NCBI RefSeq assembly: GCF_010731815.2
Contig: NZ_AP022593.1
Span: forward strand, 4,030,001 to 4,094,000
DNA: 64,000 bases
Origin: Mycolicibacterium arabiense
GTDB lineage: Bacteria; Actinomycetota; Actinomycetes; Mycobacteriales; Mycobacteriaceae
Reading direction: 5' to 3'
Shown here: positions 35,954 through 41,479 of the stretch, piece after piece
How the letters are laid out: each line of letters begins with the position of its first letter
Position numbering within the stretch: the first letter of the stretch is position 1
Translations under genes and position numbers: made by a program
The notes under the pieces: generated by a model
Told to the model about the DNA's origin: nothing
Database searches by the model: none
Seen by the model: the letters and a program-made list of their open reading frames with translations, nothing else

Positions 35954-35999
35954 TTGCGGCGGCTAGCCCGTCAAACTATAGTCTGGACACATGTCCAGA
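35954..35999 (+). promoter_or_regulatory. Promoter and operator of the GT4 operon
   Basis: -35-like TTGCGG (35954-35959), a 17-base spacer and -10 TATAGT (35977-35982). TCTGGACA-CA-TGTCCAGA (35982-35999), a perfect 8-bp inverted repeat, covers the transcription start. Its core GACACATGTCC is nearly repeated as GACACGTGTCC at the TetR gene (40905-40915). Confidence 0.65.
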
Positions 36000-36034
36000 G
36001 CCTTTAAGTCGACTCTGGTCGCGGTGAACTGACC

Positions 36035-37285
36035 ATGCGGATCGCCCTGCTCTCCTATCGGAGCAAGACGCATTGTGGCGGCCAGGGCGTCTACGTCCGG
36101 CACCTGAGTCGCGGCCTCGTAGAACTCGGTCATGACGTCGAGGTGTTCTCGGGGCCGCCCTATCCCGGCGGTCTCGATCCCCGCGTCCGGCTCACCGAGG
36201 TGCCGAGCCTCGACCTGTACCGCGAGCCGGACCCGTTCCGGATCCCGCGGCCCAGCGAGATCCACGACCGCATCGACCTGCTGGAACTGCTCAGCACGTG
36301 GACGGCCGCGTTCCCCGAGCCCAAGACGTTCTGCCTGCGGATGGCGCGCATTCTCGCCGAACGCCGCAATGACTTCGACGTCGTGCACGACAACCAGAGT
36401 CTCGGTACGGCGCTGCTCGACATCGCCGACTCGGGCCTGCCGGTGGTCGCCACCGTGCACCACCCGATCACGCGCGACCGGGTGCTCGACGTCGCGGCCG
36501 CGAAGTGGTGGCGCAAGCCTCTGGTGCGGCGGTGGTACGGCTTCGCCGAGATGCAGAAGACGGTCGCCCGGCGCATCCCCGAGTTGTTGACGGTGTCGTC
36601 GACGTCGGCTGCCGACATCGCCGAGGACTTCGGCGTCTCGCCGGGCCAGCTGCACGTGGTGCCGCTCGGCGTCGACACCGAGCTGTTCACGCCCGCCCCG
36701 AATCGGGTGCGCAACCGGATCATCGCGATCGCCAGTGCCGACGTGCCGCTCAAGGGCGTCAGCCACCTGCTGCACGCGGTGTCCCGGCTGCGCGTCGAAC
36801 GCGACGTCGACGTCCAGCTGGTGGCCAAGCTCGAGCCGAACGGTCCGACCGAGAAGCTCATCGCCGAACTCGGCATCTCCGACATCGTCACGGTGTCCAG
36901 CGGCGTGACCGACGCCGAATTGGCGGCGCTGCTGTCATCGGCCGAAGTCGCCTGCATCCCGTCGCTGTACGAGGGCTTCTCGCTGCCGGCCGTCGAGGCG
37001 ATGGCCAGTGGCACGCCGATCGTCGCGAGCCGGGCCGGCGCACTGCCGGAGGTGGTGGGCGCCGACGACGAGTGCGCGCGCCTGGTGAACCCCGGCGACG
37101 TGGACGACCTGACCAAGACCCTTGGCGCACTGCTCGACTCGCCGCTGGACCTACACCGACTCGGCGCCGCTGGTCGGCGTCGGGCGCTGGACGTGTTCAG
37201 CTGGGAGTCCGTCGCCGCGCAGACCGTGGCGGTGTACGAGCGGGCAATCGAGAAGGCAGACAACAAGAAGGCAGGCGCATGCTGA
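36035..37285 (+). CDS. GT4-family glycosyltransferase
   Basis: 416 residues, GT-B fold. The acceptor half begins RIALLSYRSKTHCGGQGVYVRHLSRGLVELGHDVEVFSG; DNQSLGTALLDIADSGLPVVATVHHPI and ELLTVSSTSAADIAEDFGVSPGQLHVVPLGVD are typical. The donor half has EVACIPSLYEGFSLPAVEAMASGTPIVAS (the ExFxxPxxEAMA motif) and SWESVAAQTVAVYERAI. The reaction is retaining transfer from an NDP-sugar. The methyltransferase overlaps its 3' end by 7 bases, and a barrel protein follows, so the product is likely a methylated glycoconjugate. The acceptor is unknown. Confidence 0.87.
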   Translation: MRIALLSYRSKTHCGGQGVYVRHLSRGLVELGHDVEVFSGPPYPGGLDPRVRLTEVPSLDLYREPDPFRIPRPSEIHDRIDLLELLSTWTAAFPEPKTFCLRMARILAERRNDFDVVHDNQSLGTALLDIADSGLPVVATVHHPITRDRVLDVAAAKWWRKPLVRRWYGFAEMQKTVARRIPELLTVSSTSAADIAEDFGVSPGQLHVVPLGVDTELFTPAPNRVRNRIIAIASADVPLKGVSHLLHAVSRLRVERDVDVQLVAKLEPNGPTEKLIAELGISDIVTVSSGVTDAELAALLSSAEVACIPSLYEGFSLPAVEAMASGTPIVASRAGALPEVVGADDECARLVNPGDVDDLTKTLGALLDSPLDLHRLGAAGRRRALDVFSWESVAAQTVAVYERAIEKADNKKAGAC

Positions 37286-37998
37286 CCGTCGACTTCGACC
37301 GGCTTGGCGTCGGCGCGGGCTCCACCGTCATCGACGTCGGGTGCGGCGCGGGACGTCACTCGTTCGAGGCGTTCCGCCGCGGCGCGAACGTCGTCGCGTT
37401 CGACCAGAGCGCATCGGACCTCAACGACGTCGATGCGATCCTGCAGGCGATGGCCGAGCAGGGCGAGGCGCCCGCATCGGCCAAGGCCGAGGCCGTCAAG
37501 GGTGACGCGCTGGACTTGCCGTTCGACGACGGCTCGTTCGACTTCGTGATCGCCTCGGAGATCCTCGAGCACGTGCCTGCCGACGAGCGTGCGATCGACG
37601 AGTTGGTCCGGGTGCTCAAGCCCGGCGGCCGGCTCGTCGTCACCGTGCCGCGGTGGCTGCCGGAGAAGGTCTGCTGGATGCTGTCCGACGAGTACCACGC
37701 CAACGAGGGTGGGCACATCCGGATCTACCGCGCCGACGAGCTGCACGCCAAGATCGCCGCTCGCGGAATGGAATTCGATCACCGCCATCACGCGCACGCG
37801 CTGCACGCGCCGTTCTGGTGGCTCAAGTGCGCCGTGGGCGTCGACAAGCCGAACCACCCGGCCGTCACGGCGTATCACAAGTTGTTGGTGTGGGACATGA
37901 TGTCTCGCCCCTGGCTGACGCGTAACGCGGAGGCGGTGCTGAACCCGCTGATCGGCAAGAGCGTCGCGCTGTACTTCAGGAAGCCAGCGGCGGTCTAG
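37279..37998 (+). CDS. Class I SAM-dependent methyltransferase of the GT4 operon
   Basis: 239 residues from ATG 37279, overlapping the glycosyltransferase stop by 7 bases. SAM motif I is VIDVGCGAGRHSFEA; VAFDQSASDLNDV, AVKGDALDLPFDDGSFDFVIASEILEHVP and VLKPGGRLVVTVP are the following conserved motifs. The C-terminal part (HAPFWWLKCAVGVDKP) is rich in aromatic residues and may meet a lipid or the membrane. The substrate is probably the glycosylated product of the neighbouring transferase. Confidence 0.87.
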   Translation: MLTVDFDRLGVGAGSTVIDVGCGAGRHSFEAFRRGANVVAFDQSASDLNDVDAILQAMAEQGEAPASAKAEAVKGDALDLPFDDGSFDFVIASEILEHVPADERAIDELVRVLKPGGRLVVTVPRWLPEKVCWMLSDEYHANEGGHIRIYRADELHAKIAARGMEFDHRHHAHALHAPFWWLKCAVGVDKPNHPAVTAYHKLLVWDMMSRPWLTRNAEAVLNPLIGKSVALYFRKPAAV

Positions 37999-40196: not shown

Positions 40197-40856
40197 TCAG
40201 GCGGGTGGGGACACCCGCTCGAGCACGCGCATCGAGCCCATCGCCGACACCTCGCGGAACTCGCCGGAGTCCAGCGCGCGGCGGTAGATGTGGAACGGCG
40301 CCTGGCCGCCCTCGTCGGGGTTGGGGAAGACGTCGTGGATGACCAGCCCGCCGCCGACGACGACCCACGGGGCCCAGCCTGCGAAGTCGCGCTGCGCGGC
40401 CTCCTCGGTGTGGCCGCCGTCGATGAACAGGAACTGCACGGGCGTGCGCCAGCCCCGCGCGACGACGGTCGACTTGCCGACGATCGCGACGACGTGCTCG
40501 TCGAGGCCTGCGCCGTCGAGGGTGTGCCGCAGCGTGGGCAGGGTGTCGAACAGGCCCGTGACGGGATCGACCATCGTGGTGTCGTGGTACTCCCAGCCGG
40601 GCTGGTGCTCCTCGGACCCGTGATGGTGGTCGATGGTGAACAGCACCCCGCCGCCGGCCTGGGCTGCAGCGCCGAGCATCACGGTCGACTTGCCGCAGTA
40701 CGTGCCGATCTCGACCCCGACGCCGTCGCCGAGATAGTGCACGGCGGCGTCGTAGAGGGCGCGCCCCTCGTCGGCCGGCATGAACCCGATGACCTGGTCC
40801 GCGTAGGCGAACAGGCGCTCGGCGGCGGGGGGCAGGGCGGTGTCGGCAGGGCTCAC
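40197..40856 (-). CDS. Class I SAM-dependent methyltransferase (CmcI/Methyltransf_24-like)
   Basis: 219 residues from GTG 40856 (a TTG at 40865 is less likely). [44 protein letters not shown] is the SAM-binding strand-loop with the conserved IDxHxG-like site, and [20 protein letters not shown] is the motif of the cephalosporin-hydroxylase-like methyltransferases. The gene is divergent from a TetR regulator, with 53 bases between the starts holding a palindrome. It may belong to the GT4 pathway through the shared operator. Confidence 0.8.
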
Positions 40857-40900
40857 GCGGACCAACTTACCGTTGCCGGTGTACCGGTGTTGTAGTAGCG

Positions 40901-40918
40901 TCCAGACACGTGTCCGAT
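40901..40918. promoter_or_regulatory. TetR-type operator between the methyltransferase and tetR
   Basis: TCCAGACACGTGTCCGAT matches the GT4 operon operator at 12 of 18 positions and 10 of the 11-base core GACAC-R-TGTCC. It overlaps the GTG of the TetR gene, so it could repress both divergent genes. Confidence 0.55.
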
Positions 40919-41479
40919 CCGGCCTTGGAGTCGACTCGGCGCCGTCTGACCGCCAAACAGGCCGACACCGTCGATCGCCTGGGCAAGGCCGCGGTCGATC
41001 TCCTGACCCGCGAGGGGTTTGCCGGTCTGACCGTGCGGCGCGTGGCCGCCGAAGCAGGCGTCGGCGCCGCGACCGCGTACACGTACTTCTCGTCGAAGGA
41101 GCACCTCGTCGCCGAGGTGTTCTGGCGCAGGCTGGCCGCCGCGCCTCCGGTCGCCCACGAGTCGGGTGACGCCGCGACCCGCGTGGTCGACGTGCTGAGC
41201 CACATCGCGGCGCTGGTCGCCGACGAGCCGGAGTTCGCGGGCGCCGTCACCAACGCCCTGCTGGGTAGGGATCCCGACGTCGACGTGCTGCGGCAGCGGA
41301 TCGGCCGCGACATCCGGGACCGGCTGACTGCCGCGCTGGCGCCAGACACCGATCCCGAGGTGGTGGACTCGCTCGAGATGCTCTACTCGGGCGCGCTGGT
41401 GCGGGCGGGTATGGGCCAGGCGTCCTACGCCGACATCGCGCGACGGTTGGAGAAGTCCGCGCGGCTCATGCTGAGCTGA
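40910..41479 (+). CDS. TetR/AcrR family regulator, likely of the GT4 locus
   Basis: 189 residues from GTG 40910. The HTH is [35 protein letters not shown], typical of TetR. The rest is an alpha-helical ligand domain. The start codon lies inside a palindrome matching the one over the GT4 operon promoter 5 kb away, which suggests autoregulation and control of that operon. The 3' end overlaps the next TetR gene by 14 bases, tail to tail. Confidence 0.85.

Follow-up and report, generated by a model that had tools for sequence, protein, structure and literature searches.

A conserved operator and a TetR-type regulator at the methylmannose polysaccharide genes of Mycolicibacterium arabiense

The genes of the locus

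The region described here is part of a 64,000-nt stretch of the Mycolicibacterium arabiense genome (contig NZ_AP022593.1, positions 4,030,001 to 4,094,000; called the window below, with positions counted from its first base). Judging from the sequence, it is the already described mycobacterial cluster for methylmannose polysaccharide (MMP), which comprises ManT, pMeT3, MmpH and MeT1, and it is accompanied by a gene for a TetR-family regulator that we call TetR1. The gene manT (36035-37285, plus strand) encodes a predicted alpha-(1->4)-mannosyltransferase of MMP belonging to family GT4. Its product matches 7QSG with 737.9 bits over residues 1-407, contains the GT4 domains and has the published ManT active-site residues (G15, H142, K240, E313 and E321). 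It is followed by pmeT3 (37279-37998, plus strand) for a putative MMP 3-O-methyltransferase of class I (Pfam Methyltransf_11), and by mmpH (37998-39068, plus strand) for a predicted MMP alpha-(1->4)-endomannosidase with an (alpha/alpha)6 barrel. The latter matches 7QSJ, an entry named methylmannose polysaccharide hydrolase (MmpH), with 685.4 bits over residues 5-356, and its residues D44, D47, E259 and W312 correspond to the published D47, D50, E262 and W315 (offset 3). The predicted MMP 1-O-methyltransferase gene meT1 (40197-40865) lies on the minus strand, and its product matches 6G7D with 379.9 bits over residues 16-219 of 222; we take 6G7D to be MeT1, while the database table gives it as a methyltransferase domain protein.

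The true start of meT1 may be the GTG at 40856, nine bases inside the called open reading frame (ORF; region 40854-40869). On the minus strand this GTG is preceded by TAAGTT at a distance of 7 nt, which suggests a leaderless start.

The same four genes form the cluster of nontuberculous mycobacteria described in the available text of PMC9883506, where the activity of pMeT3 is called putative as well and from which the structures 7QSJ (MmpH) and 7QSG (ManT) were deposited. The matches to the solved proteins are nearly full-length and the active-site residues are kept; the present locus differs from that cluster by a REase-like gene interposed between mmpH and meT1. A first-pass annotation of this DNA, made from the sequence alone, had proposed an undescribed glycoconjugate locus with a possibly polyprenyl-linked product. 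Neither proposal holds, since the matches of the GT4, barrel and methyltransferase proteins to PDB entries, together with PMC9883506, identify a described locus: the barrel protein corresponds to the MMP endomannosidase, and the product should be a polysaccharide of 3-O-methylmannose. Its enzymes and its TetR gene were listed correctly, but the list lacked the REase-like gene at 39098-40138, which separates the second methyltransferase gene from the barrel gene. The coordinates agree with its three overlapping genes transcribed from one promoter.

Two operators with the same promoter geometry

Upstream of manT we read a promoter at 35954-35982 (plus strand) with the -35 element TTGCGG (35954-35959), a 17-bp spacer and the -10 element TATAGT (35977-35982), exactly to the base as it had been annotated. 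The perfect 18-base palindrome TCTGGACACATGTCCAGA (operator O1, 35982-35999, plus strand) covers the last base of this -10 element and the predicted transcription start. The gene for TetR1 (40910-41479, plus strand; TetR_N 52.8 bits, cut-off 24), which is divergent from meT1, is preceded by a promoter of the same geometry at 40873-40901 (plus strand; TTGCCG, 17 bp, TAGCGT). Here the palindrome TCCAGACACGTGTCCGAT (operator O2, 40901-40918, plus strand) is centred on the GTG start codon of TetR1 at 40910. The two operators agree at 12 of 18 positions and at 10 of 11 core bases, as claimed before. The exact core TGGACANNTGTCCA is present in three copies in the 6.45-Mb genome, while 0.15-0.24 copies are expected from the base or dinucleotide composition of the window. 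One copy is at manT; the other two mark the starts of an Rv0767c-type tetR gene and of a further tetR gene, referred to below as the third tetR. Beside the Rv0767c-type tetR lies an aldehyde dehydrogenase gene of the Rv0768 type (TIGR04284, 940.8 bits).

The claim that manT and tetR share an operator was then followed in relatives. We compared 80 named loci, the best of 107 that were confirmed, and 40 loci picked from the 119 mmpH-bearing genomes, 20 of them without TetR1 and 20 with a more divergent TetR1; the two sets may share species. All 80 named loci have the gene order manT-pmeT3-mmpH, and in 77 of them meT1 also falls within the fetched stretch. All 120 loci of the genus carry the motif [AG]GACANNTGTCC at most 300 bp upstream of manT. 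The mean identity is 0.95 for the 18-mer, compared with 0.82 for the preceding 20 bases, 0.62 for the 25 bases before these and 0.46 for the 30 bases downstream. Of the 120 manT promoters, 99 have TATAGT and 113 have TTG at -35. A related site, TC[CT][AG]GACANRTGTC[CT], is present at the TetR start in all 90 loci with enough flank, with a mean identity of 0.93 (far 5' flank, 0.65); the corresponding -10 elements are TAGCGT (80), TAGTGT (9) and TAATGT (1), and 80 of the 90 have TTG at -35. At the level of whole genomes, TCTGGACANNTGTCCA occurs in 112 of 148 genomes of the genus, and its reversed control in none of them.

Further exact copies of TGGACANNTGTCCA away from manT were noticed in two of these genomes (G146:C1:111574 and G045:C1:3132965) and may represent additional regulon members. 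The cluster and TetR1 are also present on a contig filed as Acidobacteria (L114), which falls within the mycobacteria and is probably misbinned.

A start codon inside the operator

In the manT site the central triplet is ATG in 112 and GTG in 8 of the 120 loci, never CTG or TTG; of the 90 TetR sites, 89 have GTG and one has ATG there. The distance from the -10 element to this RTG is 8 nt at 118 of 120 manT sites and at all 90 TetR sites, and the 17-bp spacer is common to both. The third tetR and the Rv0767c-type genes likewise have their start in the middle of such an operator site, the -10 spacing being somewhat different in the Rv0767c-type genes. We accordingly expect a leaderless tetR mRNA and a manT mRNA that begins with a short ORF. 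In the window this predicted leaderless upstream ORF (35991-36032, plus strand) has 13 codons; its ATG is at the centre of O1 and its stop codon ends 2 bases before manT. Elsewhere it has 9 codons (30 loci) or 12 codons (21 loci), and in two loci (L126 and L152) it is fused in frame to manT. Between clades the peptide is not conserved. No codon-position signal was detected in the 9-codon group (0.185, 0.204 and 0.204; 18 distinct sequences), and a weak one was seen in the 12-codon group (0.163, 0.089 and 0.244; 15 distinct sequences).

Since the manT site is built like the tetR promoters of this family, with a start codon within the operator, we infer as the simplest history that manT captured a tetR-type promoter, along with its start codon, early in the genus.

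Occurrence of TetR1 and its likeness to KstR

Of the 148 genomes sampled from the genus, 119 encode MmpH; in the family as a whole it is encoded by 99 of 201 sampled genomes, which belong to 14 of 31 genera. Using an E-value below 1e-45 as a cut-off set by ourselves, we found TetR1 in 82 of the 119 genomes with mmpH and in none of the 29 without it (Fisher p 9e-13, not corrected for kinship); some of the 37 mmpH-bearing genomes without TetR1 are small or fragmented. In a tree of 120 MmpH+ManT rows, 23 rows without TetR1 form one clade with support 100, which includes M. asiaticum, M. gordonae and M. helveticum. The other rows labelled as lacking TetR1 are L036, L041 and L044, which are cut contigs, L072, L077 and G127. 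A search of the G127 genome did not find TetR1. For L072 and L077 a loss was considered and rejected, since the gene begins just at the edge of the sequence fetched.

The nearest solved relative of TetR1, by profile and by predicted fold, is KstR, the repressor of cholesterol catabolism, including its sterol-CoA-bound chains. In the structure model, in which the first 10 residues have a predicted local distance difference test score (pLDDT) below 50, the match to KstR exceeds that to most other TetR proteins. With 45.5 bits TetR1 stays below the KstR equivalog cut-off of 280 bits (NCBIfam NF033703), hence it is not KstR.

Regulation of the MMP genes

We consider it probable that the MMP cluster has its own repressor, TetR1, and that the reading of the operator is shared with an Rv0767c-type paralogue where TetR1 has been lost. 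According to this proposal, ManT would lengthen the alpha-(1->4)-mannose chains, which pMeT3 probably methylates at O3; MmpH would cleave mature MMP into primers, and MeT1 would cap the reducing end of these primers. TetR1 would have two binding sites, O2 around its own start codon and the perfect palindrome O1 at the manT promoter. Bound to them, it would obstruct RNA polymerase at the start of transcription until a lipid ligand releases it; by analogy with KstR, this ligand would most likely be an acyl-CoA or a sterol-CoA. In genomes that have lost TetR1, the manT site is probably read by an Rv0767c-type paralogue, whose recognition helix is very similar.

The Rv0767c-type protein of this genome is 45% identical to TetR1, and in the recognition region 19 of 27 residues are identical. 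A stretch of 10 residues of this region is common to Rv0767c-type proteins and TetR1. According to the available text of PMC6593523, a palindrome at 14 operons of a phytosterol-using strain has been assigned to the strain's Rv0767c orthologue and is also found near the start codon of the orthologue itself; phytosterol raises 12 of these operons more than 3-fold. Operon G155_19665-19675 of that paper was considered as a possible MMP operon. Rv0767c sites in M. tuberculosis are described as rich in GAC and GTC (PMC10312376, available text). Both descriptions fit TGGACANNTGTCCA, and we infer that motif X of the Rv0767c-type regulators, as it appears in the available parts of PMC6593523, PMC4482099 and PMC10312376, equals this core. 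TetR1 has in common with these regulators the palindrome core and the position of an operator on the start codon, but it is a separate paralogue tied to the MMP genes.

In the TetR1-less clade the operator is kept in 24 of 24 loci (the 23 of the tree and G045, which was left off it), and the identity of its core is 0.99, compared with 0.60 in the far 5' flank. In three TetR1-less genomes (G132, G017 and G143) the exact core has no copies other than those at manT and at the Rv0767c-type gene start. It is conceivable, though in our view rather improbable, that TetR1 alone controls both sites and that the operator persists in this clade through its overlap with promoter and start codon. Indeed, some operator bases also belong to the -10 element and to the RTG, and the promoters of the clade are 0.90 identical anyway. 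However, the right arm TGTCC lies past the predicted start and is nevertheless present in 24 of 24 TetR1-less loci, while the identity falls to 0.83 in the 30 bases downstream as well as to the low value of the far upstream flank. At the other extreme, TetR1 could control only itself, and perhaps meT1, the manT operator belonging wholly to the Rv0767c-type paralogue. The persistence of the operator without TetR1 would agree with this, as would the exact core of O1, which equals the core at the Rv0767c-type start and is thus nearer to it than to O2. On the other hand, TetR1 is confined to mmpH-bearing genomes while the paralogue is widespread, and the left half of the manT site has the form TCCAGACA in 18 of 120 loci, a form that also occurs among TetR1's own sites. 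We regard an exclusive role of the paralogue at manT as unlikely, slightly more so than sole control by TetR1. As a tentative reading, which we would put somewhat below even, two paralogous repressors can read the switch, the dedicated TetR1 and the general Rv0767c-type protein, TetR1 having been lost in one clade and the switch kept.

As a side observation, in the G045 locus (L122) mmpH was matched in three pieces, while the manT operator is intact.

Several observations weigh against the proposed control by TetR1 with a paralogue as substitute. O2 is imperfect (12 of 18), and its right half is coding sequence. Scans of the genome with mismatches gave numbers close to the control (7 versus 5 with up to one mismatch, 10 versus 7 with up to three), and the weight therefore rests on the exact copies and on conservation. 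The same facts would speak for the palindromes being mere chance or coding by-products to which nothing binds. This explanation, to which we give hardly any credence, was ruled out by the conservation of the manT site in 120 of 120 loci and by the absence of the reversed control from the 148 genomes. Further, the exact 16-mers are also found in 5 of 29 genomes without mmpH, in G045, the fourth TetR1-less genome scanned, the exact core has a third copy, and six of eight TetR1-less genomes searched encode a further paralogue of 37-40% identity, which has a diverged site. The third tetR carries the site yet its recognition helix differs, and two TetR genes with the same site (L174 and L175) differ in the recognition helix, so that likeness of sites alone cannot name the binder. 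In the main text of PMC6593523 neither "glycosyl" nor "polysaccharide" occurs, and a fold common with KstR does not establish the ligand of TetR1. Finally, the operator was absent upstream of manT in all 20 loci from other genera, five of which carry TetR1 with its own start-codon site. This argues that control of manT is not the ancestral role of TetR1, and these five loci also favour the view that manT belongs to the paralogue.

The first-pass annotation had assigned the whole pathway to one TetR protein. The tie between this protein and the pathway stands by position and by the occurrence given above (82 of 119 versus 0 of 29), but a single controller is too simple because the operator persists in the TetR1-less loci and is missing at manT in the other genera.

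The main text of PMC9883506 mentions no regulator, promoter, operon, TetR or transcription (the last two as whole words), and we found no account of MMP gene regulation in the literature searched, most subscription papers being outside its reach. What looks new here are the conserved operator before manT and the TetR regulator, which is of a known kind, the start-codon-centred layout being uncommon. The operator is apparently read by the neighbouring TetR, and a related regulator with a link to lipid genes may read it too. A conserved operator with a dedicated regulator offers a testable link of the MMP genes to lipid sensing, and the likeness of TetR1 to KstR and to the phytosterol-linked regulator suggests candidate ligands.

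The mmpH-meT1 junction and neighbouring genes

The REase_MTES_1575-like gene (39098-40138, minus strand) lies outside the set of MMP genes, and its Pfam score of 25.7 bits is below the cut-off of 38.2 bits. A gene of this kind occupies the position between mmpH and meT1 in two of the 80 named loci. In this genome its protein has 10 further matches, two of them being neighbouring pieces. The gene is flanked by 24-bp repeats (39103-39126 and 40135-40158), as revealed by a scan of the window (mean 0.00 in 100 shuffles), and by eye the second repeat falls within a long inverted repeat. The mmpH-meT1 junction appears to be an insertion hotspot, with a gap of more than 400 bp in 22 of the 77 named loci with meT1. 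TetR1 still adjoins meT1 where the gap between meT1 and mmpH measures 5.8 kb (L076) or 7.2 kb (L072 and L077).

Next to TetR1, at 41469-44032, are genes for a second TetR protein, a P450 and msrA, which are present in 64, 63 and 59 of the 80 named loci, respectively. Their order is presumably that of Rv0135c, cyp138 and Rv0137c. In three of the loci from other genera (L264, L272 and L276), the region before manT contains GAAC(A/G)TGTTCTA, a sequence which we take to resemble the KstR consensus in part.

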